NCBI RefSeq assembly: GCF_024721975.1
Contig: NZ_JANQBB010000002.1
Location: 372,001-436,000, forward strand
DNA length: 64,000 bases
Source of the DNA: Paenibacillus endoradicis
GTDB lineage: Bacteria > Bacillota > Bacilli > Paenibacillales > Paenibacillaceae
Direction of reading: 5' to 3'
In this document: positions 29,858 to 55,757 of the stretch, piece by piece
Layout of the letters: every line of letters begins with the position of its first letter
Numbering within the stretch: position 1 is the stretch's first letter
The notes under the pieces: generated by a model
What the model was told of the DNA's origin: nothing
Seen by the model: the letters and a program-made list of their open reading frames with translations, nothing else
The model's database searches: none
Program-made: the position numbers and the translations under genes

Positions 29858-31504
29858 CTAATTTTCATTGAAAATTGTTTCTATATACTTTGAGCTAAGA
29901 CCAATGGCTTTTAGCTCTTCTTTCATTTCATGTGTGTGTGCGATTTTTCTGTTAGGGACATATAAAGCCACGCCATTGCGATTTTTATAGCCTGCTGAAT
30001 TTCTTACTTCGAATGCAAGTGATTGGGCTGCAGCAGTGATTTCTGATGATTTGCCCATTATATCTATAAGATCATATTGATCAAATATCCCTTCGTTTTT
30101 GCCTAATAGCTCTGATTTGTTTGCAAGGTCTGTTAGTGAGAAATTAAATTCTGTATTTTCTATTGCCTTAACCAATGATTCAGCCTGAGAAAGCTTCATC
30201 ATTGACATTGTTGTTGGAATATTAGCTTCAATCCCCGAATGTAGGGTAAAGGAATCTAACATTAAACGCCCCACTCTTTCAGTGCTAATTCGTGGGTTTC
30301 GCTCCATTGCACTTATCCATGTAGTATAATATAACCCTCCTGCGGGGGTTGAATCTTCAGAAGCTATGAGATATTTGCCATGGTTTCTAAGGGCATAGGC
30401 AGTTTCAACTGTGCCCATAAGACATGCATCAAAGACGATTAAGTCGAAATACATATCTGATGCATCAATTGCCTTCGAAAGCTCCGAAACTTTCATCGTT
30501 TTTCGTTCGTTTAGCTCGTCTGCACCAAATCCGCCCATTGTACCATACCCATGGTCCCATAAAATCAGTATATAACGCTCACTTGGTGCAACGGTTTTGC
30601 CCCAAGCAAGAAAATCCCTTAGTGTTTTAGGGTCTGATGCGGCGGTTTGGATGAGGCTTTCGTGCTTTTCAAGTCGTCCATCGCTAACTTCAAAGCGTTC
30701 TGATGCTCCATCAGTCATATATTTGTTGTGATATTTGAGCGTTCCACCTGTTTGAATCAGGATTTTCGTATTTTGGTTTGGCTGACCACGAAAAATTTCT
30801 TCCAAGTCATTTGTTAGCCGCCCTTGTTGTGATTCAAGGTCAGAACCAATTGCATATATTAAAATCGTAGATGAATCAAAATTTTTATCCTGCTCCCAAA
30901 GTGATCTTGCCTCGTTTAAACTTTGCGTTGTGAAAACATCTGCTTCGCGAAGGATTTGACCTTGTGTTGCAATTTGGTTTTTGGGTCTTGTGTTTAAAAC
31001 ATAGCTGCTTATTTTTGCAAGAGTTCCCCGATTGAATTCGACTTCTTTTGTAAGGTCTATTCCTAAAACCATTGAGGCAAAAGAAACCGCGGTTTCATAT
31101 GTAAAGTCGCCCTTTGTTTCTGAATATCCCAAAACCCTTAAAACCATTGCACAATATTGGTTTAGAGAGGTTTGTTGGTTACCGCCAAAACTATGTTCAT
31201 TAATTCCGTTAACTATACCATTTGTATATGCAAACGACACATAGGGACTTTCCCAACCAGTATCATTAAATGGATTTTTGTAGGTATTTTTCTGAATGTC
31301 TTCTTCCTTCCCCCACAGACGAAGCATCATCACAAGGGCTTCTGCTCTGGTAGGCACCCTCAAAAGTTCATATCCATTCCCCGTCCCACTGAACAATCCC
31401 AAGTGGTTAAGCGCTTCTGCATATCTTGAGTTTTGTGCCGCTGCTGATGGAGTTGTTGCAAGAAGAAAGATTAAAAAAATGATTAAACTTCGGATATATT
31501 TCAT
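29858..31504 (-). CDS. SLH-bearing clostripain-family (C11) cysteine protease
   Basis: The protein has about 548 residues from ATG 31504; a TTG at 31522 is an alternative. A signal peptide is followed by SLH-like repeats (residues ~25-150: RAEALVMMLRLWG, PFNDTGWESPYVSFAYTNGIVNG). The C11 protease domain runs from about residue 200, with the catalytic His in ILWDHGYGTMGG and Cys in LIVFDACLMGT. Such proteases cut after basic residues and often need self-processing. The gene lies downstream of the three giant surface genes on the same strand, with a dead transposase between. It is likely a cell-wall-bound protease acting on, or with, that complex. Confidence 0.85.
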   Translation of the reverse strand: MKYIRSLIIFLIFLLATTPSAAAQNSRYAEALNHLGLFSGTGNGYELLRVPTRAEALVMMLRLWGKEEDIQKNTYKNPFNDTGWESPYVSFAYTNGIVNGINEHSFGGNQQTSLNQYCAMVLRVLGYSETKGDFTYETAVSFASMVLGIDLTKEVEFNRGTLAKISSYVLNTRPKNQIATQGQILREADVFTTQSLNEARSLWEQDKNFDSSTILIYAIGSDLESQQGRLTNDLEEIFRGQPNQNTKILIQTGGTLKYHNKYMTDGASERFEVSDGRLEKHESLIQTAASDPKTLRDFLAWGKTVAPSERYILILWDHGYGTMGGFGADELNERKTMKVSELSKAIDASDMYFDLIVFDACLMGTVETAYALRNHGKYLIASEDSTPAGGLYYTTWISAMERNPRISTERVGRLMLDSFTLHSGIEANIPTTMSMMKLSQAESLVKAIENTEFNFSLTDLANKSELLGKNEGIFDQYDLIDIMGKSSEITAAAQSLAFEVRNSAGYKNRNGVALYVPNRKIAHTHEMKEELKAIGLSSKYIETIFNEN

Positions 31505-31668
31505 CAAATTACGACCTTTCAATTTGAAAATTTCCTTCTTAAATGTAAAAAATACAAAAGGGTTATCGATACTAGTCTACCTGATATGCAGCACCTAATG
31601 GCGGTTTAGAATCTATACCTGAATGTCGATTCTGAGGGGCCTTCCCTCATCTCATGCAAAGCACGTAA

Positions 31669-32026
31669 AGCTGCGTATTTGCTACCGGTGATGGAACCCC
31701 GATTGTCACCTCTGCCTATACAAGAAGCAAATCCACCTGCGATTATCATGCACAAGGCATTAGGGGGTGCAACCATCCTCGTATTTACTCCCAGCCCGAC
31801 TGCAACTTGGGCTGGGACAGCGCCAGAGAGAAGTATAATAACGGATACCATCTCTACATGAATTCAGCCGCTCATGATGCCGAAGCCATTTACATGCTGT
31901 TGGCTCACCAGAACATTGAGCCCTTTATTGATCTCAACAACCGTAGCAAGAAAAACTCAGCCACGGACAGCGATATTCAAATTTCACCGGCAGGCATTCA
32001 GATTTGCCCTAAAAGTTCACAGAAAG
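31669..32026 (+). pseudogene. Transposase remnant (IS1182-like)
   Basis: A plus-strand frame reads ATGDGTPIVTSAYTRSKST, then DCNLGWDSAREKYNNGYHLY, then IEPFIDLNNRSKKN and ISPAGIQICP, which resembles the DDE region of IS1182-type transposases. There is no start, the upstream part is missing, and the end runs into the neighbouring gene. The insertion separates the protease gene from the three large surface genes. Confidence 0.65.
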
Positions 32027-32066
32027 AAACCAAACTGACAAAAAAAGTTCTAAGCCAGTTTGGTTT
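32027..32066 (-). terminator. Possible terminator of the surface operon
   Basis: AAACCAAACTG (32027-32037) pairs with CAGTTTGGTTT (32056-32066), with a T-run in the loop on the minus strand, 16 nt after the cohesin-SLH gene. The unusual U-run position keeps confidence low. Confidence 0.4.
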
Positions 32067-32081
32067 GTATTCATTTCTAAA

Positions 32082-33680
32082 TTATTCTAACTCTATAAAC
32101 CTTTGAAGCATTGTCGCAACTTCTGCTCTGGTTGCAAGACCAGAAGGATTGAGAGTCGAATCAGAGTTCCCCTTCATGATGCCTTTTGATACAGCCCAAC
32201 TAATTGCTTCTTTGGCATAGCTAGATATTTTATTTACATCTTTGAAGTTAAGGCTTGAACTTGTGGTATGTAGATCAAACCCTTTACTCTGTGCGTATCT
32301 GTGAAGCATAACAGCAATTTGCTCACGAGTGACTGAATCATTAGGAGCAAACATTCCCTTACCATTGCCGTTTACAATTTGGTTTTGGTTTGCCCAAATA
32401 ATAGGATCAGAATACCAAAGACCGCTTTGAACATCAGAGAACACATCTGTGAATTCAACATCTGGTTGATCTGCCATACGATATAATGCAGTAGCAAGCA
32501 TTGCACGACTCATTTTTCCTGAGGGTGAAAATTTAGTTTCAGAAGTTCCTGTGAATAGCCCCGCATTATAAGCATACCTTACAGAAAAATAGAACCAATC
32601 GTCATGTGCTATATCTGTAAAAGGAGGTATTCTCACAAATGTAACAACTACAGTTGTGTCACGACTAATCTCTGGAATGGTATAAATGTCACGTCCTATA
32701 AATTTTTCACCGTTGATGTAGATATATTCTGTTTCATACCCTTCATCAGGAATCATTCTGATCGTTGCAGAGGTTGTTGCACGAATGGTTTGAGATTCAA
32801 AGCCATCGGCAATTTTTCCATTTCCACCTTTAACAGAAGCTTTAACAGAATAGTTAAGCTTATTGTTCGAATCATCGTCCGAGACAACCCAACGCTTCGG
32901 ACCTACAATTTTTGAATTCTCAAAATTCGAAAAGGCAATGCTAAGCTTCTCTATTGCTTCTGTAATTTCCGAATCTAGAGCGTGTTCATTCTCAAAAACA
33001 GCCTCAACCTCGGCAATAACATTCCTTAAATTTTGAGCGGATTTTGTTGAATACCAAAAATCCGGGCTATATATTGTTTTGGGATTATCCGCGATAATTA
33101 CTGAAGCAAGATAAGATTTTGCAGCAACAATGTCTTCATATAGTGATGACTTTGAGGCTTCCTTAATTCCAGTGCCCACAATGATTTGCACATCTTCAAA
33201 CGGTGTAATATACCGCTGTGTCGCATCTTTATTGGTTACAATGAAGCTGCCTAAAGAAAAGCTTAAAGTTCCGTTGTTTCTAGCTTGGAAAACAGCGGTT
33301 CCAATATTGTGAAGCATTGAATCATCTTTTCCGTTGGCGGTCATATCGAGAAATACATAGTTGATGACACCATCCGAATATTTCATTGAAATGTCCTTTT
33401 CCATATTGACACTAGTGTTTTTTAGAACATAAGAATCAAACTGTAGCTTGCCTTGAAAGCCATATACCGGTGCTTTACCAGCACCAGTATATGCAAGACT
33501 TAGTTTCACAAATATTTCCTCTCCAACGTCAAACGATGATTTTGGAGAACCAGAGCTGTCAGTTACTGTGATATTAACACGATAACTAAGGTCAGCAGCA
33601 TCGTTTGCCCCATAGACATATGATGGTAAAACAGCTACTAGAAGTAGCATACACAACATCATTTTCAATTGTTTCATCAT
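32082..33680 (-). CDS. Cohesin-like domain protein with SLH anchor
   Basis: The protein has 532 residues. A signal peptide (to about 25) is followed by a cohesin-like beta-sandwich (~30-170: SFDVGEEIFVKLSLAYTG, then YGFQGKLQFDSYVL). A helical spacer (~180-265), a small beta region (~285-360) and three SLH domains to the C-terminus follow. The SLH domains should bind secondary cell-wall polymer, so the cohesin faces outward. Its start overlaps the end of the dockerin-bearing gene by 4 bp (ATGA type), so the two are translationally coupled. I infer that it is the surface receptor for that dockerin protein. Confidence 0.8.
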   Translation of the reverse strand: MMKQLKMMLCMLLLVAVLPSYVYGANDAADLSYRVNITVTDSSGSPKSSFDVGEEIFVKLSLAYTGAGKAPVYGFQGKLQFDSYVLKNTSVNMEKDISMKYSDGVINYVFLDMTANGKDDSMLHNIGTAVFQARNNGTLSFSLGSFIVTNKDATQRYITPFEDVQIIVGTGIKEASKSSLYEDIVAAKSYLASVIIADNPKTIYSPDFWYSTKSAQNLRNVIAEVEAVFENEHALDSEITEAIEKLSIAFSNFENSKIVGPKRWVVSDDDSNNKLNYSVKASVKGGNGKIADGFESQTIRATTSATIRMIPDEGYETEYIYINGEKFIGRDIYTIPEISRDTTVVVTFVRIPPFTDIAHDDWFYFSVRYAYNAGLFTGTSETKFSPSGKMSRAMLATALYRMADQPDVEFTDVFSDVQSGLWYSDPIIWANQNQIVNGNGKGMFAPNDSVTREQIAVMLHRYAQSKGFDLHTTSSSLNFKDVNKISSYAKEAISWAVSKGIMKGNSDSTLNPSGLATRAEVATMLQRFIELE

Positions 33681-36600
33681 CTTCTCAGTGCCTCCATTAG
33701 TATGAGTTGTGCGTCTACAATGTCAACAATACCATCACCGTTTTTATCCGATCTCATCCAGTTTTCTGATGAGCTAAAGCCATTGTAGACATTATTTAAT
33801 AGAGCTTCTATGGTTGCTAAAACGTCAGTCCTATCTACTGCCCCACTACCATTGGTGTCTCCACGAAGAAGATTAGGAGATTTCACTGTTGGTTCAAAAA
33901 CAAGGTTCGCTGTTAATTGCTCACCAGAGACAAGTTCTCTTGAAGAACCAATATATGCTTTCTTAAGGTTGTCATACAAGAGAGTTTGTTGATTGCCTCC
34001 AATCACAACTGTTGCTTTACCCATATTTATCTCAGTATATATGGTGAACAACGAGAATCCTTGTGACTGCCTGACTTCATAACGATATCCAAGATCTTTT
34101 ACACTAATGTTGATCACGTCTGACAGTTCTTTATAGACAATTTCCCCATTCTCACCTTCAAAAGCAGAAAGTCTGTAACTAACCTTGATTGTCGTTTCAC
34201 CTGGAGCCAAAGCTTCGATTGTCCCATCCTGTGAAAGCTTGATAATGTTCTGATTATATAGAACATGCCACACAACATCTTCTTCTCTTAACTCGGTTTC
34301 GCCTATTGTGCGAAGAGCCTTAACAGAAAGTACTGTTTTCCCGCCTATTCCAAGCTCGATAGCATCAGGTTGATTGGCGGAGTTTTCAAGGTCAGATATT
34401 AGTTTAATGCTCTCAAACTCTGACAATTCACGATTCACAAGATAAATTGGAACAACCGTTTCGTTTCCAGCTTCATCCACTGCTTTAAGCAGTAAGGTTT
34501 GGCTTGGTTCTTGACTTGAAGTCTTACGATGAACTTGGAATGTTCCGTCTGAACTTTTCACAATACCTTCTGAACTACCATCTAAAGTTAATGATGCAGA
34601 TACCTCTGTTAGACCGTGGAAGCTATAGCTTGAGTTCGCACTAACAAAAACAACTTGATTGCTGACGGTATTTTCAACTTTATCCTTATCAAGGCTTGGT
34701 TGAATTTCTTCACCTAGAAGTAATGTGGGTGCACTTGTATCAACAGTAACACCTATTGCTCCTGATGATCTGCTACCTTGAATGGTGTCACGATTTTCGC
34801 CAATCGCAATAAAGTCAACCAAATTCGCACCGTCTTCAACTGTTTCTTCAAATGACCAGACCGTCTTAAATTCCTCAGGCGTGTTCTTATCCTCTTGATT
34901 AATATTCAAGGTCATTTTAACTGGTCTATCGAAAGTGTACTTTGCCTCTAATTTATTAGTTCTTAAATAATAACGTTCTTTTGATTTGTCAATATTTGTT
35001 TCAACACTTACAAGCTTAGGTTTATCCACTGAAGGCATAACAAAGCTTTTCGATGCTGCAACCTCAGTAGAGCTATAATATTCCGTATGATTAAGTGGAG
35101 ACTCGACAATTCTAACCGCTTTAGCTTTAATAGAATAAGTCTTACCTGCCTGTAATAAAGGGTTGTTCCCTTCGTCTAACGGTTTTAGAATAATTTCACT
35201 GCCCACAGGAAACTGACCAAAGGAACTCTCAACCTCAACCCCGTGCTCATCTTCGATTGCCACAAAATAATGTGTTGCAGTTTTGTCACTTCCAGTTATT
35301 TCAGCTTTCACATAGCCATTACCATTGTAGACCGCAGATACTGACTTAGGTCTTTGTGGAAGCAATGGATTTGTAAAAGTGAATGGAGATGAAGTGATTT
35401 TCTTACTCATTCCACCTAGATTGTTAACAAGCATTGCAACAACATAATAATTCCCTTCAGGGAAAGACTCAGGAAGTGTAAATACATGAGAACCTGATTT
35501 AATTTTATCTAGCTCAAGATTACCAATACTAATTAATGATGAAGTATCTTGAGTGTTATCAGATTCTATTGTTTGCATAATGGATGGGTCTTTTGTGACA
35601 TAGACATTAACTGCCCCTGAATATGCACTTTGCCCGTCAGTTGTCCAAGAAACATTAATCTCACGGCTCGTATTTTTGCTATGAGAAGCACTAATACCTG
35701 TAAGCTCTGGTATATTTTCAACACTGTTTACTTCAAAGTTGTCGATATAAACATCTGCTGTTGTCACAGAAACTGACCAATTACCAGCAACAATAAGAGC
35801 TGGATCAGTGATTGTAACATACAAATAATTTTTACCATCCATAGATTGAACAAGATAGTTTCCATTTCCGTTATTATCGTCTTCAACCATTGTCAATCTT
35901 TTTCCAGCTGGATTAGTGACTATGATTTCAGATGTAGAAGGTTTGACATGTCCACGAAGTGGGATTTCAAAAAGAAGTGAATCTTTCGATGCTGGGATAA
36001 CTTCTTTAGTAATTCCATTTCCTGCTCGAGTATTAGCTATTGTCATTGTAGTGAGCCTTCTCATATTCGTTCCATATAACGCAGTGGTTGGCACAAGATT
36101 GCCGTTCGCGTCTAGCTCTTCCGAGTGAACATAGTGTACAGCTCCTCCTCTAGAAGAGAGATCGATGGAACCACCAAAGTTTAGATCACCATCCCAATAA
36201 TATATAAAGCCAAACTTAATTCCAATTACTTTAATGTTTGCACCAATAAAGTCAGATGAAACAGCTGCCTCAATTCCTCCAATTTCCTTTCCCCCTATTA
36301 TTGGGACTGAAGTTGGAATATAGAATCCTGCGTAAACATAACCATAGAAATAATCTTCAGTAATTTTAATCGTTATACCACCACGAACCGCCCCAGCGTG
36401 AATGCTAATGTTACCATAGGCATTTAGCTGAAATGGTGATATCCATTGAACATTCATTCCCGCTTGAAGATTAAGCAATCTTCCATCTTCGTCTTTTTTC
36501 AACCGACCAGAACCTTCAATACTAAGACCGGATAGTTTTGCTTCTAGCTTGAAGTCACCTACAATAACTAGGTTAATTAATAACCTTGTTTGAAGATGAA

Positions 36601-39364
36601 GTGTAATTGGTGGAAGTTTGCCGTCTGGTGATCCAGAAACTGTCTCTGCAAGGTTTCCGATCCCTCCACCAAGCCCTGTCATAAATACATATGGTGCAAC
36701 GATAGGAACTTTCGAAGTTTTACTTGCTATAAAGAATGTAAGTTCGTCAAGCATGACAGCTGGAATATCGTTAATAGGAACCTCTTTAAATGCCAGGGAA
36801 CCTTCCACTTCTAGCATTGTGAGAGAAATTCCGTAATCTAATTTATAGATACCATCAATTGTATTAATTGTTACTTCTGCCATAGCACCAACTTCATTTC
36901 CTACTAATGGACCTAGTATATCTTCCGGTAGGGCTACAGCTAGTGTAGTATTGACGCCAATAAAACCAATTTTCTCATCTTTACTGCCATAGAGGATATC
37001 ACTAATTTCTGCAGTTAGTGAGCCCTTGTAGTCATAATGTTCTTCATTCTTGTTCTCATCTGCTGCTTTTAAAGGCATTGAGATCTTTCCACCAAAGCTA
37101 ATTCCGAAGTCATCTTCATCTTGAGTCATGACACCGTACTTTATATTGATTAAAAATCCTGCAATATTTTGAAGCATAGAACCAGCATCTCCAAATTGTA
37201 GTTCTAATGCTTTAGCCTCATTCTCGGAAACAGCCTCACGGTCCAAGCTGTATTTCACTCCATTTTGGGCTTCATAAAACCACTTATTATGCCAAATATT
37301 AATAGAGTTTATTACTTTTATTGTGCCATCGCCTTCTAATTTTGCACCATTGTCGTTAACTGTCATCTTAAGTGCATTGTTGCTGTCATATGTCAAGATG
37401 TTATTAATAGTAATATCGCCATCGGCTTTACTAGCAGAGTAATATCTCTCTTTACCAGTACCCATTAACCTAACTTTTCCACGAACTGTCAATAGAATTT
37501 CTGTTTCATCTTCTTCATATTTTATGTCATTATGAATAATACCATTTCTTGTGACGTCACCAGAAATAAATTTTTTCATTATATCTTCGTTTTCAAAACT
37601 AATATAATCGTATAACTGCCTATGATTAGAAGAGTCTGTTATTCGAACTAGCGAAACAATACCGTAGCTTGCACTTTTATCCTTCAGATTATTTGTCACA
37701 TCTAGTTTAGTTGTTGAAATAATCTTTGCACTAAACGCATCGATTAGCTGTTGATTTGTAAATCTAAATTCAATGTTATATTTTCCAACTGCCAAATTTT
37801 CATTAGTTGAAAACGAAAGCGCTTGACCCTCTTCAACAAAACTTATTTTCCTTTTGTCAATTAATGTAGTTCCACCGCTTGCTTCAGAAACAAGATAAAG
37901 ATCCCATCCATCAATTCCTGTAATTGCTTGTTCCAAAACTTCCATATCACCGGAAACGGTGATATTTTTGTCTCCTTCATAATATACTGCCGCAGGGAAA
38001 ATATGCTTCATTGAAACTTTAGGAAGTTCACCTTCAACTGCTGGAATTAATATATTTGTATTCGCACTATATTCAACCAGTTTATGTGTGCTAGAATCAA
38101 TAATTTCTGTTGCATTTAACGAAACTATCAATCGCTTTGCGGTAATCATAGATTGTTTCTTTGCGATAATTTCTATATTTGGAATGTCAAATACAGTACC
38201 AACGTTTAAACCACCAGAAATTTTCATCGTATATTCTCTTGTATTCGTTGCTGCAAAAGTAAGTCCCTCATCGAGAGTAAGGATTACAACTGGTTCTATA
38301 AGCTCTTTAGCTCCCGAAACACTGTTGTCAATTGTTACAGTTGCTTTGAATTTGCCATCGTTAAGATATCCATTTTTGTCTTTATTCAGTTGAACTTTAT
38401 CTGTCTGGATACCGATTGATACATTCTTTTCTTGTGTCTGATCAGAAAAGTTACCGATACCATATAGCATTTCAGAAATTCTTACTTTACCTGGCTCAAT
38501 TGGTTTTTCGCTCCAATAATAAGCTGTTGCAGTATCGGGTACTAAATATTTGTTTGAATAGTTAGTAAAGTCGACGTTAGGGTTGGGTGTATAATCGTAT
38601 CTTGTGTTTGCAAGATTAACCCAGTGTCCAACAATAACTTTATCAACATTTACGTCATTGTTACCACTCCAGCCAGACAAAAGGGCATAAGCCATTTTGT
38701 CTGAAGCTGAAAGAGAATCCACATATCTAATTTGTTGCGGCAGGTTTTCACCGCTATATTCTGTTTCCACGATTGTCGGTTGTGTTCGGTTAACGAGAAC
38801 ATGAGGTGCATCAATTTCTGAACCAAGCGCGTTATCTAGAAGAAGACGAATACCCACTGTTCCCGCTTTGGTATTATTATTTTTCACGTCATATGAAATA
38901 CCAATGTTTCCAACCAATGGGTTGTTGGGGTCAATAGAAATTGATACCTTTTGTGTAATGGTATAACCCTTGATGTCCCATGCAACTGTTAAAAGTCTGT
39001 TTTGCTCAGAAACGACCGGTTCATGAAGTTTGGTATCTATTCCAAACCATCCATATTCCTGACCGAAAATATAATCTTTTCCGTCGATACGAACTGTTGT
39101 AAATGATGTTCCATTGCTTCTTGCCGCATCTTCCTTATAGAGAAGCGGAAGATTGTTGTCGAAAGCTTTTTGTGGATGACCATCAACGGTTTCGATAGAA
39201 AACCCACCCGTTTTTGAATTGATAGAATATTTCATAAAGTCGTTTGCAATTGAATAATTCGCACTGTTAGCTTCTGCACTCACTGGGAAACTTGCAAAAG
39301 TGAATAGAATCGCTAGAAAAAGGGTCACAGCTATGCCGCGTTTTAATCTACTATAGATAATCAT
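33677..39364 (-). CDS. Giant secreted surface protein with C-terminal dockerin
   Basis: The protein has 1895 residues. A signal peptide is followed by a long beta-rich N-terminal half and several fibronectin/Ig-like regions (for example residues ~1250-1450). A BIG2-like region (~1690-1760: GTIEALAPGETTIKVSY) precedes a C-terminal type I dockerin with two calcium loops (GDTNGSGAVDRTDV and SDKNGDGIVDIVDA). There is no SLH or sorting motif, so attachment through the dockerin to the cohesin-SLH protein encoded next is the simplest model. It starts 3 nt after the stop of the 2330-residue gene, with GGAGGG inside that gene's end. What it binds or does is unknown; no enzyme motif was seen. Confidence 0.82.
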   Translation of the reverse strand: MIIYSRLKRGIAVTLFLAILFTFASFPVSAEANSANYSIANDFMKYSINSKTGGFSIETVDGHPQKAFDNNLPLLYKEDAARSNGTSFTTVRIDGKDYIFGQEYGWFGIDTKLHEPVVSEQNRLLTVAWDIKGYTITQKVSISIDPNNPLVGNIGISYDVKNNNTKAGTVGIRLLLDNALGSEIDAPHVLVNRTQPTIVETEYSGENLPQQIRYVDSLSASDKMAYALLSGWSGNNDVNVDKVIVGHWVNLANTRYDYTPNPNVDFTNYSNKYLVPDTATAYYWSEKPIEPGKVRISEMLYGIGNFSDQTQEKNVSIGIQTDKVQLNKDKNGYLNDGKFKATVTIDNSVSGAKELIEPVVILTLDEGLTFAATNTREYTMKISGGLNVGTVFDIPNIEIIAKKQSMITAKRLIVSLNATEIIDSSTHKLVEYSANTNILIPAVEGELPKVSMKHIFPAAVYYEGDKNITVSGDMEVLEQAITGIDGWDLYLVSEASGGTTLIDKRKISFVEEGQALSFSTNENLAVGKYNIEFRFTNQQLIDAFSAKIISTTKLDVTNNLKDKSASYGIVSLVRITDSSNHRQLYDYISFENEDIMKKFISGDVTRNGIIHNDIKYEEDETEILLTVRGKVRLMGTGKERYYSASKADGDITINNILTYDSNNALKMTVNDNGAKLEGDGTIKVINSINIWHNKWFYEAQNGVKYSLDREAVSENEAKALELQFGDAGSMLQNIAGFLINIKYGVMTQDEDDFGISFGGKISMPLKAADENKNEEHYDYKGSLTAEISDILYGSKDEKIGFIGVNTTLAVALPEDILGPLVGNEVGAMAEVTINTIDGIYKLDYGISLTMLEVEGSLAFKEVPINDIPAVMLDELTFFIASKTSKVPIVAPYVFMTGLGGGIGNLAETVSGSPDGKLPPITLHLQTRLLINLVIVGDFKLEAKLSGLSIEGSGRLKKDEDGRLLNLQAGMNVQWISPFQLNAYGNISIHAGAVRGGITIKITEDYFYGYVYAGFYIPTSVPIIGGKEIGGIEAAVSSDFIGANIKVIGIKFGFIYYWDGDLNFGGSIDLSSRGGAVHYVHSEELDANGNLVPTTALYGTNMRRLTTMTIANTRAGNGITKEVIPASKDSLLFEIPLRGHVKPSTSEIIVTNPAGKRLTMVEDDNNGNGNYLVQSMDGKNYLYVTITDPALIVAGNWSVSVTTADVYIDNFEVNSVENIPELTGISASHSKNTSREINVSWTTDGQSAYSGAVNVYVTKDPSIMQTIESDNTQDTSSLISIGNLELDKIKSGSHVFTLPESFPEGNYYVVAMLVNNLGGMSKKITSSPFTFTNPLLPQRPKSVSAVYNGNGYVKAEITGSDKTATHYFVAIEDEHGVEVESSFGQFPVGSEIILKPLDEGNNPLLQAGKTYSIKAKAVRIVESPLNHTEYYSSTEVAASKSFVMPSVDKPKLVSVETNIDKSKERYYLRTNKLEAKYTFDRPVKMTLNINQEDKNTPEEFKTVWSFEETVEDGANLVDFIAIGENRDTIQGSRSSGAIGVTVDTSAPTLLLGEEIQPSLDKDKVENTVSNQVVFVSANSSYSFHGLTEVSASLTLDGSSEGIVKSSDGTFQVHRKTSSQEPSQTLLLKAVDEAGNETVVPIYLVNRELSEFESIKLISDLENSANQPDAIELGIGGKTVLSVKALRTIGETELREEDVVWHVLYNQNIIKLSQDGTIEALAPGETTIKVSYRLSAFEGENGEIVYKELSDVINISVKDLGYRYEVRQSQGFSLFTIYTEINMGKATVVIGGNQQTLLYDNLKKAYIGSSRELVSGEQLTANLVFEPTVKSPNLLRGDTNGSGAVDRTDVLATIEALLNNVYNGFSSSENWMRSDKNGDGIVDIVDAQLILMEALRR

Positions 39365-39367
39365 TGC

Positions 39368-42300
39368 CTATTTCCCTCCTTTGTTTGAAACATATACAGA
39401 AATGTTGAAATAGTCACGTTTATCCGTTTGGATATATACGGTATACCAACCCTCTGAGACATTATCAAGTGTATACACTCCGTTTTTCTCCCGAAGGACA
39501 GTTCCTTTTGTTTTCATTTGACCTTGTGTTAATATGCCTTTTTCATAACGTGCATACGAAATTCCAGCAAAGTTTTTCAGTGAAATTTCTACTTTGTTTC
39601 CAATCACCGTTGCAACATTGGAACTGTCAGGCATTACTCCGTTAACAAGCGCTATTGTGTCATAAAGACCTACAAGACGAACTGTGCGACGAATTGTAGT
39701 TTGATTTCCTGCATCATCTCTTACTGTATAGTCTATATAGTAAGGGTTTGAGCGATTAAATTCATTCGCTGAGATATTGTTAGGATTAAATTCTCGCCCG
39801 CCTACACCATAGCTGATGGTAACTCGGTTAGTTAAATCAGCCTTTTTATTTGCAACCATATCCCACGCTTCAAAGTCGAGCAACTTAGACTTATCATAAG
39901 CAATTGAAGCATCTTTTTGAGGTGTCATTCCTTCGATGAAGATTAGCTCTTCACCATTTTTAAGTTTTAACTCAGGAGGTGTTTTGTCGATGAGACCAAT
40001 GTTAACACCATACGAATTATGCTCCCCTGTTCTTCCTTGAAGATTAAATACATAAAGTCCATTGTTGCTATAGTTCATTGACTTATCTAATTCCCAAACG
40101 TCGTTTCCGCCAACGAATTTAGCATCTTTATCAGTGATTACAGTGACGTTGACATCTTGGTTTGTTATTGGGTTTTTATCAGTTCCGACAATATAACCTT
40201 CTTCTTTTCCAGATGTGTCAACTCCGACATTAATCTTGTTTTGATAATCTTGTTCTATCCACTGACCAGCTTGGTTTTTCACAAGATATTTATATGACCA
40301 ACGAATTTCTTTAATCTTTGGTGCTCCTACTTCAATTCCTTCAATCGTTAGCAGAATTTTTTGTGTTAATCCTGTTTTGTCTCTAACTTGAAAGACGTGC
40401 TCCCCATTCGTTTTAACGTTGATGACAGTATCTTTATAAGACACCACATCACCATCTTCATTTTTAACCTCTGTTGAAAGTACATATTCATATCCACGAT
40501 AAGAAACGGTAAGGTCTTCTATATTTCTAAGAATGTCTAGCGGGACGCCATCACTGTCACGAATTTGGTCAAATAACACATTAACACTCAACTTATCTTT
40601 GGCTAATGTTGCAGTTGCGCTAACTTGCGGTGGTGTAGATACAATATTTGAAATTGTAATAATTTCATGACCTTCGTTACCATAGTCATCAACAAAGAAC
40701 ATAGTAACTGTACCATTTTTTCTAAGGCGAACAGCTTTGGTTCCAGGGATATGAACGATGTCGGTATAGGTTAAGCTTCCAATCGGTTCAACACCTGTGA
40801 CCTTAATTGTTTTGATATCTTTGCTAAACTGCGTCAACTCAACATTTACACTTTGTGTAGTAATTTCAGTTGGTAGTGTGCTGTACGTCCTTGCAGTTGC
40901 AATTGGCACTACTTTGTTAATATTTGAAACTGTGATTGGAGTAGTCCACTTGTTTCCTGCGTAGTCATAAGCTGTAACATAATAAATTCCTGAGCTATCA
41001 AGTTCAACGACATATTCATTTTCAAGTGGCTCACCTTTGAATGGATAAACTACATCGCCCTTCTTGACCTCTGCAAATGATATTTCACCTGAATCATCAG
41101 TGAATGTAATCGTTGCATATATATTTTGATTCGTCTTGGATGTGTTTGATAACACATAAGATGTTTGACCTATTGTGTTGTCAAAATGCTTATAGCTAAC
41201 TGTACGAGAATTTGTGTTTCCTGATTGATCTCTAAACTCAAATGTGAATGAATTAACATCTTCAGTTAGAGTCCTTGAAAAGGAAGCGTTGTTGTTAGTC
41301 ATTGATAGAGTTTTTCCGCCACCGATAGGCTTAACGGTTGCCATTACTCTTCTATAAGCCTTTCCTTCTTGAACTGGAACCCAATTCCCTAGATAGTTTT
41401 CGTAGGTGTATTCTACTTTGTAGTGTACGTCTTCTGTAATTGGCGTTTTATCAATATTTGAAACTGTAACTGGTACGGTCGTTTCCATTCCCGCTTTATT
41501 AGTCACTTTGAAATATACCGTTGCATTGTGCTCAAATCTTTCAGTATGAGATGCAATGGAGTCAATTTGGGTAAAGCTTTTGCCGTCATAAGAACGTTCA
41601 AGCTTTAAAATTCCGCTTTCCGGGTCAGATATCGAAAGCCTTGCATTCACAGTTTGGTTTGTTGGCTCAGTATTTGAATATTCCACACTAGCAACTGGTG
41701 CAGTTTCGTCAACTACTGAGATGGCAACATACGCAGCTTCCATCCGATCAGCTTCAACTCCTTCTGTTGTATAGACCTCGAAGTAAGCTGATTTTGTTGT
41801 CTTCCCATCTCTTAGCGCTTCAAATACAAGCTTGGAATAAGCGGTTCTTCCTGCTTCTGCTCCCTCTGCTTCTGTTTCTGTTCCTTCTGCTTCTGTTTCT
41901 GCTCCTGCTCCTTCTGCTTCTGTTTCTGCTCCTGCTTCTGCTTCTGCTTCTGCTTCTGCTTCTGCTTCTGCTTCTGCTTCTGCTTCTGCTTCTGCTTCTT
42001 CATTTTCTTCCTCTGTAAATGAGTGGGCAAGAACACTTAGCTCCGTATTTAGCTCTAATCCAGACAACACTGCATTTTCAACAAAGAAATATTGCCCAGA
42101 ATATTTAGGATTTGGAACAATAACATAGTAAAGCTTATCGCTTTCCTTATAGGATATAAATCCTCCATTTTGGATAGATGTTCCATTTTTCTCCACATTC
42201 CCTGTAATCTCAAATCCTTCAATGAATTCAACATCAGGTGTGAATTTTACAACACTATCCCTTCCAGCCTCATCCTGAATATATAGACTAATTTCATTAT

Positions 42301-45300
42301 TGTTTTGAATAACAAGATCATAGTCCATCACATAGTCAACAGATGTTGTTAAAAGCCCTGTATAAAGATGATTCGACCTTGCCATTTCATTCACCTTATT
42401 CCCCTCAATTGGTGCATTAGGCATGACCGTTACCGGAACATTAAATGAAACAGTAACAGTTGAGGTCGTTTTTGATATTGCAGGGTTTGCGCTAACACCT
42501 ACAATTGATGCTTCCGCATCCACCAGGTTCAGTTTTGAGTCAAAGAATACTTTTTCAGTAATATTTCCTGAATTGTCGACAGCTTTGATTCCAATTGCAT
42601 AGTTTCCACTAAGCCCTTTCAAGTCAATGGTATACGTTTTCTGTTTGTTCCCTTCGCCATTCACGATTGGCTGACTACTTTGCAATGTCACTGAGTTACT
42701 CGTATTAAATAGCACATAGTCTTCTTCTGTAAGAATATGGTTTGCTGTTGGATCTTTAATAAGTGCGAATGAAACGGTTGTGTCACTCTTGTCTGAAACA
42801 TCGACTGTGATAAGACCATCTTGTCTTGCTCCATTTGTTACGATTTCACTTGATGCAATTGCAGTCGGAGCTACCTTGTCAATATTCGAAACTGAAATAG
42901 GAACATAAACACTATTACCAAGCTCGTCAGATAGTACTAGGTTTGTAGCAATATTTTCACTAATAGTTACTGTGAATGCACCGTTTGTATATGGAGAAAT
43001 TGTGATTTTGTCCCGATATTCTGGTGCAACTGTTAGTTTAGAAATTCCTGTGCCTACATCATTTGCTACTATTGTTGCGGTTACTGATGAGTTTGTTGGC
43101 TGAATTGTGCTATAGTCTGGCAATTCAAAAGTTGGTGCTGTGCTATCATATAAGATTTTGATAGGTCTTATTTCTGTTAAAAACTCTGGTCTTTCGTCAG
43201 CCGGATAATTGATGAGTCCAAACTGTAAATAGATTGTGTTGACACCCTCTTGAAGCGCAATAGGCGTGTCAAGTGCAAATTGATAATCCCCCCCAGAGTT
43301 ATTAAGTGCTGAAAACTCTGATACTACAACTCCACTATCTGTTGGCATTCCATCAGTTGTTGCATAATATACCGGCTTTTGATATTTCGTTGTGCTCTGA
43401 AGAGTCCAAGCTACATGAGGTTCTCTCAATGTAGCAGAGATAGTATATGACCCATCTTTTGTTGCACCCATTCCGTTTATAGTCTTTGGCAGAGTATGTC
43501 CTAATTTCTGAATTGTTGCAGGTCCTGACCTCATCCCAAAGTACGGGGAAATCTTTTTACTTTCTTTACTATGAAGATCTTTTGTAACAACAACAATGCT
43601 ATAAGCACCTGAAGGAAGTCCAGTTATTGTCAAGGTTTGATCAACTTCAAATATACCTTCACTGTTTGGTGTCAGTGTCAATGGATAATTTGGCGTATAT
43701 TCAATCTTGATGTCCGTGTCTGGTTTAGCTAAATAGTAATGTGCACTTGCAATACCGCTTGCATCTGTCACTTTAACTTTAAACTGATGTGTTGACTTAA
43801 AATGATCATGTTGATTTCCAACAATATAACTAATCTCCGGGGATTTGTTATCATAAGTGAACTCTCGAGAAAATTCTGATGAGTTGCCAGAGCGTTTATC
43901 TCTAACTCGGTATTCAAGTATATATTTTCCATCCATCGTAACTTGAGTGCCGCTACTATTAAGTTTATCGGCTACACCAACATCATGGCTTGCATCATAG
44001 ACAGTAAAGTTTTGTGTGAAGCTTTTTCCATTACTAGTATGAGAGACCCATCTATAACTTGTTTCGATATTTGGATTACTTACATCGAATGTGATATCAA
44101 AACGTTGCTTTGGAGTACCCGAATCCTTTGTAATAAGAGTATCAGTAACAGAACCATTAAAGATCTGCACTGTTTTTGTGTAATAATCTGACACTTGCTC
44201 GTTTCTTGAATCGTTTCCTAATGAGTCCACAGTGAAAGAATAGAGAGTTCCGTCAAAACTATCACCTTTTGGAATAGATAATATAGCAGTAGTACTTTCA
44301 CCTTTAGAATCTACAAATGCCCACATGCCTTGAATTGAAGAAATTTCTTGTGATGCAAGTTTAATTTCATCAATTGGAGTATTAGGTGGCGAAGCAGTAC
44401 CGTTCATAAAAGTATAATAAGTTCTAGACCAACCGCCATTACTTTGTTGATAATCGTTCATTTCAAATCTATAATCATTTCTTTTACGAGACTGCGCATC
44501 TTGCGGCTGTACAGTTTCGTGAATGGTTACACGCGGAGCCTGGTTATCTAGTTTAATATTTTCAATTTCTTCATATCCGGCAGCTCCGCCTAGTGGATTG
44601 TCAGCTTTATCCCATCCATACAATCGAAGCTTGAATTCGCCTTCTGTAAGATCAATAGGACGTAGGTTTATACTAACTCCTTTTAACACTTGCGTACTAA
44701 TAGGTGCTGTAACTTTAGTTGCGCTTCCTGTACCGTCAAAGTTTGTTATCCTTGTCATCGTCGGTTCATAGACATCACCGTTTTTCTTGTACAGCTCATA
44801 TTTAAAATAGTTTTGATTATCAATGGTGTGGGCGACATTTCCCTCTGGGTAGAGTGTTTCGCTAGCTACCATATAAAATTGATGCATTTTTTTAACGTTA
44901 TTTTGAATTGAATTTTGTCCTGTTAGATCCAGTCCATTTTCGTCGGTAACTCTTATGGTTGGTGTTTTTGTATCAACTTTATGAGTTGAAAAATAAAAAC
45001 TTTGTGATGTTTTTGATTCTGGTGTTGGATTTTCCAAATGATATGGTTGTCTATTATTATTTTTCATTAAATAGGTAGACACATTATTAAGTTGTAGTCT
45101 TATCCCCTCACTCTCAACTTCGCTAACATCCATTGATACTTTCCCAGTAAACTGAAGCGTGCCATTTGGTTTACCATCCGCTCCTAATAGTTTCGTCATG
45201 GTAAGATTAGCAATTGGTGTTGCAGTACTGTTTCCAAGATATAACACTGATGTTGCATCGAAATTAGTTATAAGTTCCTCTTTAATTTCTTTTGTCATAT

Positions 45301-46360
45301 TTTTTTTATGAATTGAAATTGCATCAACTGTAATATTAACATCTGTTAAATTTCGATTTAGATATCGATGATCAGTTGCATGCGAGAAGGTAGCTGTTTG
45401 AGAAATATTTTCGTTGCCTAAGTCAAATATGCTACGATAAAAAGTATAAATAACATCTTTATAGTAGTAATCTACTCCACCTATTTTTATAGTTAAATAC
45501 GTTTTAACTTGGGGATTACCTGAAACGGTGTGAGCAAAAGTCCCATCAAGACTTTCAGCGTTGGTAGACTGGGCAAGAAGCGCCACTCTATAGGTTAGCG
45601 AAATCTCTGCTTTGTCCTGTGCAACCATTGCATCGTGAAGCTTTTTACGGTCAATATCCAACTTGAAATTTTTTGTTTTTGTTGGCTCTTGAAATGTTAA
45701 CCAATCTCGGCCTACAGAGTCGTCCGAAAGTGTATAATTAACAACAGGAGCATCTTCATATTGCATAACGTCATAGTGACCATATTGATCCCTAACTTTT
45801 TTGTCCCACTCTTTTATTTCAGAACCAGTCGAAGTCGCATCTAGATATAACTCTCCTCCACCATTATCGACGCCACCTATATCTGTGAATTTTCTTTTTG
45901 TTACGTCGGAAATGTCACGATATTGTCTGCCATAGCCTTTTGTCCACGTGTTTAGTCGAATAGTCTTCGCCTGTGTTGGATTTATGCTCCCATCAATCTG
46001 AGGAAGCCACAGAACCACAGATTCAACATACCAGTCATCAGTTCCCACCAACCAAAAAACAAATTCATTCATTCTCCATGGTGGAATGTTTTGTATTTTA
46101 AATGGATATTGCGCATCAGAACCCGGCTCAAAGTCGTCGCCAGGTCCGTCAATATACGCTGTATGGTCAGAGCTTTCTCCTGTTTCATAGGTACTTAAGC
46201 CCATGTAAACATCATCGTCAGTTCCGGTGGTGTCGCCCGGCAACGTTTTCACACCGAACACATAATTGTACGCGGTTGGCACATTTGCAGAAACAGGTAC
46301 TACTGATATTGCTGATATTAAAACTGAAAATGCTAGTATCATACTTAAAATCTTCTTCAT
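39368..46360 (-). CDS. Giant Ig-like secreted protein with poly(Glu-Ala) tract
   Basis: The protein has 2330 residues from ATG 46360, which follows GAGGAGGT; a longer frame to 46489 lacks a ribosome site. A signal peptide (VPVSANVP cleavage region) is followed by an N-terminal beta-rich domain and then a long series of bacterial Ig-like modules. These share motifs of the type DxxAP and TxPITVSNIDK, the latter repeated many times (VPISVSNIDK, VPVTVSNIDK, TPITVSNINK). A Glu-Ala tract interrupts the series near residues 1450-1503. No anchor motif was found at either end. It is the first gene of the surface operon and probably an adhesin or stalk. Attachment is unexplained. Confidence 0.82.
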   Translation of the reverse strand: MKKILSMILAFSVLISAISVVPVSANVPTAYNYVFGVKTLPGDTTGTDDDVYMGLSTYETGESSDHTAYIDGPGDDFEPGSDAQYPFKIQNIPPWRMNEFVFWLVGTDDWYVESVVLWLPQIDGSINPTQAKTIRLNTWTKGYGRQYRDISDVTKRKFTDIGGVDNGGGELYLDATSTGSEIKEWDKKVRDQYGHYDVMQYEDAPVVNYTLSDDSVGRDWLTFQEPTKTKNFKLDIDRKKLHDAMVAQDKAEISLTYRVALLAQSTNAESLDGTFAHTVSGNPQVKTYLTIKIGGVDYYYKDVIYTFYRSIFDLGNENISQTATFSHATDHRYLNRNLTDVNITVDAISIHKKNMTKEIKEELITNFDATSVLYLGNSTATPIANLTMTKLLGADGKPNGTLQFTGKVSMDVSEVESEGIRLQLNNVSTYLMKNNNRQPYHLENPTPESKTSQSFYFSTHKVDTKTPTIRVTDENGLDLTGQNSIQNNVKKMHQFYMVASETLYPEGNVAHTIDNQNYFKYELYKKNGDVYEPTMTRITNFDGTGSATKVTAPISTQVLKGVSINLRPIDLTEGEFKLRLYGWDKADNPLGGAAGYEEIENIKLDNQAPRVTIHETVQPQDAQSRKRNDYRFEMNDYQQSNGGWSRTYYTFMNGTASPPNTPIDEIKLASQEISSIQGMWAFVDSKGESTTAILSIPKGDSFDGTLYSFTVDSLGNDSRNEQVSDYYTKTVQIFNGSVTDTLITKDSGTPKQRFDITFDVSNPNIETSYRWVSHTSNGKSFTQNFTVYDASHDVGVADKLNSSGTQVTMDGKYILEYRVRDKRSGNSSEFSREFTYDNKSPEISYIVGNQHDHFKSTHQFKVKVTDASGIASAHYYLAKPDTDIKIEYTPNYPLTLTPNSEGIFEVDQTLTITGLPSGAYSIVVVTKDLHSKESKKISPYFGMRSGPATIQKLGHTLPKTINGMGATKDGSYTISATLREPHVAWTLQSTTKYQKPVYYATTDGMPTDSGVVVSEFSALNNSGGDYQFALDTPIALQEGVNTIYLQFGLINYPADERPEFLTEIRPIKILYDSTAPTFELPDYSTIQPTNSSVTATIVANDVGTGISKLTVAPEYRDKITISPYTNGAFTVTISENIATNLVLSDELGNSVYVPISVSNIDKVAPTAIASSEIVTNGARQDGLITVDVSDKSDTTVSFALIKDPTANHILTEEDYVLFNTSNSVTLQSSQPIVNGEGNKQKTYTIDLKGLSGNYAIGIKAVDNSGNITEKVFFDSKLNLVDAEASIVGVSANPAISKTTSTVTVSFNVPVTVMPNAPIEGNKVNEMARSNHLYTGLLTTSVDYVMDYDLVIQNNNEISLYIQDEAGRDSVVKFTPDVEFIEGFEITGNVEKNGTSIQNGGFISYKESDKLYYVIVPNPKYSGQYFFVENAVLSGLELNTELSVLAHSFTEEENEEAEAEAEAEAEAEAEAEAEAEAGAETEAEGAGAETEAEGTETEAEGAEAGRTAYSKLVFEALRDGKTTKSAYFEVYTTEGVEADRMEAAYVAISVVDETAPVASVEYSNTEPTNQTVNARLSISDPESGILKLERSYDGKSFTQIDSIASHTERFEHNATVYFKVTNKAGMETTVPVTVSNIDKTPITEDVHYKVEYTYENYLGNWVPVQEGKAYRRVMATVKPIGGGKTLSMTNNNASFSRTLTEDVNSFTFEFRDQSGNTNSRTVSYKHFDNTIGQTSYVLSNTSKTNQNIYATITFTDDSGEISFAEVKKGDVVYPFKGEPLENEYVVELDSSGIYYVTAYDYAGNKWTTPITVSNINKVVPIATARTYSTLPTEITTQSVNVELTQFSKDIKTIKVTGVEPIGSLTYTDIVHIPGTKAVRLRKNGTVTMFFVDDYGNEGHEIITISNIVSTPPQVSATATLAKDKLSVNVLFDQIRDSDGVPLDILRNIEDLTVSYRGYEYVLSTEVKNEDGDVVSYKDTVINVKTNGEHVFQVRDKTGLTQKILLTIEGIEVGAPKIKEIRWSYKYLVKNQAGQWIEQDYQNKINVGVDTSGKEEGYIVGTDKNPITNQDVNVTVITDKDAKFVGGNDVWELDKSMNYSNNGLYVFNLQGRTGEHNSYGVNIGLIDKTPPELKLKNGEELIFIEGMTPQKDASIAYDKSKLLDFEAWDMVANKKADLTNRVTISYGVGGREFNPNNISANEFNRSNPYYIDYTVRDDAGNQTTIRRTVRLVGLYDTIALVNGVMPDSSNVATVIGNKVEISLKNFAGISYARYEKGILTQGQMKTKGTVLREKNGVYTLDNVSEGWYTVYIQTDKRDYFNISVYVSNKGGK
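41856..41999. repeat. Hexanucleotide (GCTTCT)n tract coding for poly(Glu-Ala)
   Basis: The plus strand shows GCTTCT units, pure for about 11 copies at 41931-41999 and degenerate before that. On the coding strand they give (Glu-Ala)n and GAETEAEG-like variants. Unit changes keep the reading frame, so the length may vary between strains. The long Leu/Phe frame on the opposite strand is a shadow of this tract. Confidence 0.85.
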
Positions 46361-49864: not shown

Positions 49865-50647
49865 CTATGCATTTGTAGCAATAGGCACGATATATAATCC
49901 TGTTTCCTCATCTTTGCGAATAACTGCCTTCACATCATAGACAAGTTCCATTAATTCACTGGTCATTATCGCCTCTGGTTCGCCTTCAGCAATAATATTT
50001 CCATCTTTCAGCACTTTTATGTGATCGCTATATCGAACAGCTTGATTAACATCATGAAGCACCATTACGATAGTTAAACCATGCTCACGATTCAATTGTT
50101 GTACAAGATCAAGCAATTCAATCTGATAGTATATATCTAGAAATGTTGTTGGTTCATCTAGAAACAGTATCGATGTTTTCTGGGCAAGTGCCATGGCAAC
50201 CCAAGCACGTTGCTTCTGTCCACCAGATAACTCATTCAACCGACGATTACGGAACTCAGTAAGTTTTGTACACTCTAATGCCCATTCCACCGCCTCGCGA
50301 TCTTCATCAGACTCTGACGAAAACATATGACGGTAAGGTAGACGTCCATACTCCACTAATTTCTCTACGGTTAAATCGTAAGGTGCTTCGTTCTGCTGAT
50401 GAACAACGGCTAGCATACGAGCTAATTCCTTCGATTTCAGTTGTTGCAAGTCACGCCCATCAATAATGATTTGACCCTCATTAGGTATGTAGTTACGAGC
50501 TAACAAACCTAGCAACGTTGATTTCCCGCTACCATTGGGACCAATAATTGTCGTGATCTTGCCCTCCACAATTGAAGTTGAAAGTCCACTTATAATCGGT
50601 GGACTGTTTTTGTATTGAAAGCTAATCTCTTTAGTTTCCATTGACAC
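49865..50647 (-). CDS. Heme/iron ABC transporter ATP-binding protein
   Basis: The protein has 260 residues of the FecE/FhuC type: Walker A GPNGSGKST, Q-loop VVHQQNE, signature LSGGQKQR, Walker B ILFLDEPTTFLD and H-loop MVLHDVNQA. It overlaps the permease gene by 17 bp. It is the last gene of the NEAT/heme uptake operon and should power import through the FecCD permease. Heme as substrate is inferred from the NEAT genes upstream. Confidence 0.93.
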   Translation of the reverse strand: MSMETKEISFQYKNSPPIISGLSTSIVEGKITTIIGPNGSGKSTLLGLLARNYIPNEGQIIIDGRDLQQLKSKELARMLAVVHQQNEAPYDLTVEKLVEYGRLPYRHMFSSESDEDREAVEWALECTKLTEFRNRRLNELSGGQKQRAWVAMALAQKTSILFLDEPTTFLDIYYQIELLDLVQQLNREHGLTIVMVLHDVNQAVRYSDHIKVLKDGNIIAEGEPEAIMTSELMELVYDVKAVIRKDEETGLYIVPIATNA

Positions 50648-51611
50648 GATCCCCCCTCATTAACATAAAGATAAGGAATGGACCACCAATAATCGTCATA
50701 ATAACGGATGCTGGTATTTCCATTGGTGCAATAATCGTTCTTCCAATGGTGTCAGCCAGTAGAATTAGTAATCCTCCTAGTATCGCGCAAAATGGAATAA
50801 GAATCTTATGATCCGTACCAACCATTTGACGGGCAATGTGAGGAACTAACAGTCCAACAAAGGCAATCAAACCACCAATAGCGGTTGCTATAGACGCTAA
50901 TAATACAGCAACAAAAGAGATAATAACTCGTGCACGCATAACTCTTAGACCGAGATTACTTGCTGTACGATCCTGCAATGATAACATATTACACCAAGTA
51001 CTTAGTAATAGTGCAATGAGTAAACCAATTGATCCATAGATCAATATCAATTTCACATCTTCCCATGTTTTCATAGAGAACATTGAGCTAACCGCTTGAT
51101 TAACAGACGTTACTGCATAGCTACCGCGATAATTGAATAATTGATTTAGTCCTGAGAACATCGCATTAATGGCAACCCCCACAAGAATTAACCTTAACGG
51201 TTGTAACCCAGAACGCCATGAGAATAAATATACTAAGAAACATGCCAAGAGACCACCGATAACGGAGAACATCGGCATCCAGAATATTAATGCTGGTGAC
51301 AATGTAGCTATTAATACAGATACAAAGCCCGCTCCGGATGAAATACCGATTACCCCAGCATCCGCTAGTGGATTACGCATAACCGCTTGTAACAGCACAC
51401 CTGATACTGCAAGAGCTGCTCCAGTCAATATAGATACAATAATACGAGGCAGACGAAGATCTCGGATGACATCAACGTTATCATTACCACCATAGATTAA
51501 ACCTTGGATAAGTTCCCAAAGCCCAACTTTAATACTTCCTGTCGCCATAGAATACAATGCGACTGCAACAAGCAATAGAAGCGCAGCGACAAAGTAAATG
51601 ATTTTCTTCAT
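50631..51611 (-). CDS. FecCD-family heme/iron ABC permease
   Basis: The protein has 326 residues with about ten membrane helices and the family motifs RLPRIIVSILTGAALAVSGV near the start and GLLVPHIARQMVGTDHK near the end. It follows the lipoprotein gene by 8 bp. It is the single membrane subunit of this importer and would act as a homodimer with the ATPase at 49865. Confidence 0.93.
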   Translation of the reverse strand: MKKIIYFVAALLLLVAVALYSMATGSIKVGLWELIQGLIYGGNDNVDVIRDLRLPRIIVSILTGAALAVSGVLLQAVMRNPLADAGVIGISSGAGFVSVLIATLSPALIFWMPMFSVIGGLLACFLVYLFSWRSGLQPLRLILVGVAINAMFSGLNQLFNYRGSYAVTSVNQAVSSMFSMKTWEDVKLILIYGSIGLLIALLLSTWCNMLSLQDRTASNLGLRVMRARVIISFVAVLLASIATAIGGLIAFVGLLVPHIARQMVGTDHKILIPFCAILGGLLILLADTIGRTIIAPMEIPASVIMTIIGGPFLIFMLMRGDRVNGN

Positions 51612-51619
51612 GGGATGAA

Positions 51620-52564: not shown

Positions 52565-52573
52565 CGTATGATA

Positions 52574-52686
52574 TCCTCCTAAAACTTTTTATGATTGCTT
52601 CTTGAGTTGCTCCTAACAAATGAAAAGTAGCGACGAAAGCATTGACTTAAACTTTTGATGTTTACGTCTTGAGTTACTACCCATAA
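52574..52686 (-). repeat. Intergenic repeat, about two units, before the lipoprotein gene
   Basis: On the minus strand the element ends AAAAAGTTTTAGGAGG, giving the ribosome site. The plus strand shows TTCTTGAGTT, ATGAAAAGTAGCGACGAAAG and TTAAACTTTT blocks shared with the 58.2-kb repeats. Confidence 0.65.
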
Positions 52687-52687
52687 A

Positions 52688-52728
52688 TACATCATGAGGA
52701 CTTCGATTACTCGAGGTCCTCATGATGT
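52688..52728 (-). terminator. Intercistronic hairpin in heme operon
   Basis: TACATCATGAGGAC pairs with GTCCTCATGATGTA, continued by TCGA/TCGA. It follows the highly expressed-looking NEAT-SLH gene and may reduce read-through into the transporter genes. Confidence 0.55.
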
Positions 52729-52788
52729 AAACTATTCATTTCATAACATGCCATCGTTGACATGTTTCATACTAAGGCTACGCTTGAA

Positions 52789-54504: not shown

Positions 54505-54514
54505 TATTCATTCT

Positions 54515-54585: not shown

Positions 54586-54600
54586 TTTGAATTTCTTAAA

Positions 54601-55653: not shown

Positions 55654-55683
55654 AGACACCTCCTATGTAAGCAAAGATATTAT

Positions 55684-55698: not shown

Positions 55699-55757
55699 GC
55701 TGATAACAAAAAAATAAAATGCTCCAATAGAACATCCTACACTTAGTAATTTGATAG

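Follow-up and report, generated by a model that had tools for sequence, protein, structure and literature searches.

A two-giant surface structure of Paenibacillus endoradicis predicted to be held to the cell wall by a dedicated cohesin-dockerin pair

Wall anchors that combine S-layer homology (SLH) motifs with a cohesin, and cohesin-dockerin pairs outside the cellulosome, are already known from the portions of the literature consulted (including PMC11557425, PMC9012536, PMC6823336 and PMC12997984). In the excerpts available from these sources, ANME archaea carry non-cellulolytic dockerin/cohesin surface proteins, some of them with both S-layer and dockerin domains (PMC9012536), the Limousia mucinolysome has a wall-anchored cohesin protein predicted to capture dockerin-bearing chains (PMC12997984), and S1 of P. 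curdlanolyticus is an SLH protein discussed as a scaffold, without cohesin or dockerin modules (PMC6823336). Here we describe a four-gene locus of Paenibacillus endoradicis, found in a 64,000-nucleotide stretch (hereafter the window; contig NZ_JANQBB010000002.1 of assembly GCF_024721975.1, positions 372,001 to 436,000), that encodes two giant proteins, P0004 and P0003, an SLH protein with an N-terminal cohesin, P0002, and a clostripain-type protease, P0001. We consider it probable that P0004 and P0003 together make a surface structure of two giants in which no enzyme domain is recognised, tethered to the wall by a cohesin-dockerin joint that is dedicated and one-to-one, and that P0002 derives from the tail of a fused giant.

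In the proposed arrangement, the SLH motifs of P0002 would hold a wall polymer and present a single cohesin, into which the C-terminal dockerin of P0003 would plug in a Ca2+-dependent manner. This joint would stand in for a peptide bond, as the P0003 body continues directly into FIVAR, B-repeat and SLH modules in other Firmicutes, many clostridia among them; upon fission, the body would have gained a linker and dockerin, and the tail a signal peptide and cohesin. P0004 would probably join P0003 via its conserved C-terminus, and the SLH-clostripain might perhaps trim or release the split complex. We infer binding, evolutionary direction and functions from what was observed, namely the domains, one modelled fold, gene order, mutually exclusive endings, co-occurrence and SLH kinship.

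All four genes lie on the minus strand and would be transcribed in the order P0004, P0003, P0002 and, after 559 bp, P0001, with 3 bp between P0004 and P0003 and a 4-bp overlap between P0003 and P0002. Domain scans and gene coordinates confirmed the four-gene set described in an earlier sequence-only reading of this DNA (an SLH/cohesin-like protein, a dockerin giant, an Ig-like giant and an SLH-clostripain). Pfam matches above cut-off comprise the dockerin of P0003, three SLH stretches in P0002, and a clostripain domain and one SLH stretch in P0001, with none in P0004. Among named homologues, the nearest to P0002 and P0003 come from Paenibacillus, at 86-88% identity. Scans for promoters (50 found versus 57.2 expected) and terminators (11 versus 10.4 expected) remained at chance level.

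Both halves of the putative joint are recognisable. The N-terminal domain of P0002 scores 15.0 bits against PF00963 (Cohesin; cut-off 24.1 bits), a family matched at E <= 0.01 by 8/25 P0002 family members (best 9.2e-6) and annotated in 2/43 listed homologues, and structure prediction gives it a cohesin fold, a beta-sandwich whose model matches solved cohesins, as the sequence-only reading had anticipated for this 532-residue protein. The neighbouring B-repeat is divergent, with PF18998 reaching E <= 0.01 in 1/25 family members. P0002 joins one cohesin to SLH motifs in a single chain, as OlpA-like SLH-anchoring scaffoldins do, and Pfam found no cohesin in P0001, P0003 or P0004 and thus no multi-cohesin scaffoldin at the locus. 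With one cohesin only, P0002 is therefore better described as a dedicated anchor than as the scaffold it had been called. The dockerin of P0003 scores 30.9 bits against PF00404 (cut-off 22.9 bits), and both of its loops, read by eye, carry the D/N ligand pattern (F-hand), in agreement with the two-loop dockerin proposed at the end of this 1895-residue protein. Some cellulosomal dockerins bind in a symmetric dual mode; because the P0003 loops, compared by eye, are unlike at positions 10-11 (RT versus IV), the P0003 dockerin more likely binds in one mode only. A chance dockerin was ruled out by the conservation of this ending in 37 family members.

We then compared P0003 with its relatives, retrieved from 5.8 billion proteins by scoring the 7989 candidates that shared most words with it (length 0.55-1.75 times that of P0003), and with the best 80 of 89 genomic loci. 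Among 92 family proteins including P0003, 37 end in a dockerin and 51 in SLH motifs, with none carrying both and four carrying neither, three of which are truncated (dockerins were called with a profile built from the P0003 family, and PF00404 was precomputed for 13 of the 37). The FIVAR, B-repeat, SLH order of P0002 recurs in the tails of 38/51 fused proteins. Split loci number ten (L001-L005, L007, L009, L011, L013 and L018; eight from Paenibacillus and two from clostridial metagenome-assembled genomes, MAGs), of which L009 and L018 are fragmentary MAG contigs, and fused loci number nine (L008, L012, L014, L019, L020, L021, L023, L024 and L064). A further fused locus, L015, is interrupted by unknown bases; it was rejected as a split form, as its upstream open reading frame (ORF) stops in that run and both frames read as one fused giant. 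The gene-neighbour search placed the cohesin-SLH anchor next to the dockerin giant in 10/10 split loci, the two fragmentary contigs included. The split form is found in Clostridia and is patchy in Paenibacillus. L010 (and P0093), from a water-buffalo rumen MAG, encodes a P0003 homologue of ~1890 aa with neither dockerin nor SLH.

A tree of the P0003 body (residues 33-1740; quick method; 62 rows from 47/92 proteins and 15 loci, with the four truncated proteins omitted and manual thinning of close relatives) groups 21 dockerin rows as a single clade (100%); next to it stand 27 fused rows and two rows with neither ending, and P0131/P0132 form a second dockerin branch. This tree needs 2 ending changes compared to a shuffled mean of 18.5. 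Its deepest branches, in a tree with no true root and with long branches flagged, are also fused forms, so the fused form is probably ancestral. Paenibacillus rows are nested among clostridial rows, suggesting horizontal transfer. A second tree, built by the same quick method from SLH spans of 150-230 residues, kept 68/146 pooled sequences (many pooled ORFs had no SLH) and 30/33 fused rows, and a branch at 98% unites 14/14 P0002-type rows with 26/30 fused tails and one control. Outside this branch lie 17/18 controls, among them eleven neighbours of other dockerin proteins and the window SLH protein at 52789, and 6/6 distant Paenibacillus paralogues. The P0002 group stands beside P0083-P0087 and L012 at 84%. 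Because fused homologues exist, tail order is shared and SLH sequences are kin, P0002 appears to be the detached tail of a once-continuous giant, rejoined by dockerin and cohesin.

Several results weigh against this kinship. L095, the one control that joins the P0002 branch, is likewise a cohesin-SLH protein and in G016 neighbours a dockerin protein; four divergent fused tails are excluded from the branch, and inner supports of the SLH tree are weak. In whole-genome searches (7-66 matches per genome, the fused giant being recognised by frame length), P0002 residues 176-532 found their best match in the giant's tail in 5/9 fused genomes and not in the other four. Modular surface proteins undergo frequent shuffling, and L095, the weak inner supports and the four genomes without a best match would all fit a convergent origin, in which common FIVAR, B-repeat and SLH modules were shuffled independently onto P0002 and the fused giants and no fission took place. 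We regard such convergence as unlikely, though the best placed of the alternatives: the SLH sequences group at 98% beyond mere module order, and this order recurs behind a homologous body whose endings sort 37/51/0/4 (dockerin, SLH, both, neither). L095 (614-4750), a 1378-aa protein, comes from a genome that also holds the fused giant L020, and may be a second case of a protein borrowing this tail.

Pairing was assessed in the 51 genomes of one Paenibacillus genus group, that of G001 (P. paridis). P0002 (E <= 1e-60) and the C-terminal block of P0003 (E <= 1e-5) occur in the same 5/51 genomes and are adjacent in each. Adjacency and co-occurrence support, as most likely, the earlier prediction that the wall-bound cohesin protein captures its neighbouring dockerin giant. 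Were the P0003 dockerin instead to use another genomic cohesin (for example an enzyme-borne one) and P0002 to take other dockerins, the pair would be a node of a general surface network; such a network could draw on the 15-24 cohesin and 10-16 dockerin matches present in each of G001, G002 and G005, and on the 38/46 other dockerin matches that share a frame with a cohesin. Strict adjacency and co-occurrence argue against it, as does the finding that in G003 and G008 the P0003 dockerin is the sole PF00404 match in the genome, although further cohesin matches are present there (one in G003, two in G008). Family profiles of the P0002 cohesin and P0003 dockerin match other pairs weakly (E 2e-1 to 4e-6) but match split loci at E 3e-39 or better and 5e-21 or better, respectively, suggesting a separate specificity for the pair. 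On balance we find the network improbable, slightly more so than convergence.

The 46 other dockerin matches come from a table of 11 genomes, which leaves out the matches of G010, G012, G015, G018 and G020 and defines the frequencies given here; the 15 stretches inspected were mostly picked for a close dockerin and cohesin. A separate cohesin frame lies <=2.5 kb downstream in 24/46, and one match (G016, contig C21) is on a contig without a cohesin match. Seven other dockerin proteins scanned all combine cohesin and dockerin (7/7), one with a rhamnogalacturonan lyase and one with a GH2 domain, the rest with carbohydrate-binding, lectin-like or esterase-associated domains. Such chains are numerous in the relatives (L081, L082, L083, L086, L087, L088 and L093), and with a downstream cohesin they would make a one-protein-one-anchor layout, and chaining, possible. 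A cohesin-SLH anchor gene beside a dockerin protein thus seems to be a wider habit in the Paenibacillus genomes examined; among such pairs the window pair is the one without a recognised enzyme domain, and it appears to have an origin of its own.

Enzyme domains were indeed absent from the giants and their anchor: Pfam found none in P0002, P0003 or P0004, in line with the earlier statement that no carbohydrate-active domain was seen, and no catalytic carbohydrate domain in either giant, both of which are probably adhesive or structural. A cellulosome is ruled out at the locus by the single cohesin and the lack of enzyme domains. The least probable alternative, a reduced cellulosome-like system in which the giants bind plant polysaccharide and an ordinary anchoring scaffoldin, its enzymes lost, provides the joint, could appeal to the relatives' cohesin-dockerin proteins, some of them enzymes, beside cohesin-SLH anchors and to PLAT-like N-termini in 3/18 P0004 relatives, but P0003 relatives are SLH-fused giants without a Pfam catalytic domain in any of 21 scanned, and 11/12 SLH neighbours of other dockerin systems (L081-L089, L093, L094; L095 is inside) fall outside the P0002 branch. 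Searches against sequences of solved structures returned SLH, weak Ig/FN3 and further weak matches for the P0003 family.

P0004 has a homologue in 25/26 core loci, and domain scans found no anchor domain in it. Across 14 aligned sequences its last ~130 residues are the most conserved part (mean majority-residue frequency 0.62-0.64, compared to 0.29-0.54 elsewhere and 0.18 at a Glu/Ala-rich stretch), and this end is still recognisable in four distant paralogue loci. Solved-structure sequence searches gave a weak PLAT match for P0004, and PLAT in its relatives hints at lipid or glycan contact. The Glu/Ala-rich stretch is encoded by a 6-bp tandem repeat, CTGCTT, in 25 copies (41851-41999 of the window), which could permit length slippage.

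P0001 matches PF03415 (family C11) at E 2.4e-34, with intact WDHG and DACLMG motifs, present in 8/8 aligned sequences, which we take to hold the catalytic His and Cys; it falls below the clostripain-proper equivalog TIGR02806 (33.7 versus 550 bits). A clostripain is present in 10/10 split loci and in 0/9 fused loci (L021 begins inside P0004), so the P0001-type protease is conserved alongside the split form alone. Its gene lies upstream of P0004 in relatives' split loci and downstream of P0002 in the window, and this position, together with the 559-bp gap, ruled it out as an invariant final gene of the operon.

Features of the locus, with positions in the window
Feature	Position	Strand	Basis
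P0004, secreted Ig-like giant, 2330 aa	39368..46360	-	domain scans, family alignment
P0003, giant surface protein ending in dockerin, 1895 aa	33677..39364	-	domain scans
P0003 C-terminal block, residues 1741-1895: linker ('X'-like, named by eye) and dockerin	33680..34144	-	
P0003 type I dockerin, residues 1832-1895, two Ca-binding loops DTNGSGAVDRTD and DKNGDGIVDIVD (by eye)	33680..33871	-	
P0002, wall anchor with cohesin, FIVAR, B-repeat and three SLH motifs, 532 aa	32082..33680	-	domain scans, fold model
P0002 cohesin domain, residues 27-172	33165..33602	-	profile matches, modelled fold
P0002 FIVAR helical module, residues 176-258	32907..33155	-	
P0002 divergent InlB B-repeat-like module, residues 276-349	32634..32855	-	family matches
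P0002, three SLH motifs, residues 354-530	32091..32621	-	
P0001, clostripain-family protease with N-terminal SLH region, 554 aa, ATG at 31504	29858..31522	-	Pfam, motifs

Other relatives depart from these layouts. Most of L026-L072, and L076, are distant Paenibacillus P0003 paralogues of ~2550 aa with their own SLH; in L055, L063, L028 and L072 the gene directly upstream of the paralogue encodes a protein of 1740-1840 aa that resembles P0004 at its C-terminus, and P. paridis, P. luteus and P. oryzae show that the same species can hold both the P0003 system and a distant-paralogue system. Proteins of 640-735 aa in L073, L074, L075, L078, L079 and L080 share the P0003 N-terminal domain only (~residues 25-307), and at the end of the L079 protein lies a cohesin match below threshold (E 1.9e-4, 22.1 versus 24.1 bits). 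Elsewhere in the window, 49865-56957 holds an iron-uptake-type cluster of an ABC ATPase, a FecCD permease, two substrate-binding proteins, a NEAT-domain protein (54601-55659) and an SLH protein (52789-54504).

Taken together, the P0002/P0003 pair seems to be a dedicated one-to-one, non-cellulosomal anchor in which evolution replaced a covalent link by plug and socket. Tentatively, and with a little less than even confidence, we propose the fuller scenario that a covalently anchored giant was split by fission, that a cohesin-dockerin joint with its own specificity replaced the lost peptide bond to give a detachable calcium-dependent structure of giants of ~1900 and ~2300 residues, and that a wall-bound protease was acquired alongside as a control. 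The existence of one protein in both fused and docked form is evidence from natural sequences that a cohesin-dockerin pair can be dedicated and stand outside cellulose degradation. It suggests a system in which to test why bacteria give up covalent anchoring in favour of a reversible link, and makes fused relatives a route to other docked pairs. If the scenario is true, Firmicutes would have in dockerin-cohesin exchange a general evolutionary alternative to covalent anchoring by SLH, one that operates outside polysaccharide degradation.

A literature search covering few subscription journals returned, in the portions of sources consulted, neither a docked pair with a fused counterpart nor a system composed in this way, and no paper combining clostripain, S-layer and Paenibacillus. 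The earlier assertion that no such system had been described thus stands, within that literature, for the pair of non-enzyme giants and falls for cohesin-SLH anchors. Like P0002, S1 is a Paenibacillus SLH protein (PMC6823336, as excerpted), but P0002 carries a cohesin. In the ANME proteins the dockerin is on the S-layer protein, and the available portion of that source describes neither a fused counterpart nor fission (PMC9012536), whereas the mucinolysome, as far as its source was available, has an LPxTG anchor, multi-cohesin scaffoldins and enzymes (PMC12997984). NagJ/NagH of C. perfringens (2ozn, 2w1n, 2jh2) are likewise a non-cellulosomal cohesin-dockerin pair, but are glycoside hydrolases, while P0002/P0003 have no enzyme domain that we found and carry FIVAR on the cohesin side. 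P0002 shares the combination of cohesin and SLH with OlpA, the SLH-anchoring scaffoldin of the C. thermocellum cellulosome (Coh-OlpA, PDB 3ul4); in contrast to OlpA, P0002 has a neighbouring giant without recognised enzyme domains as its predicted partner, bears FIVAR and B-repeat modules, and carries SLH motifs that are kin to the tails of its partner's own family.

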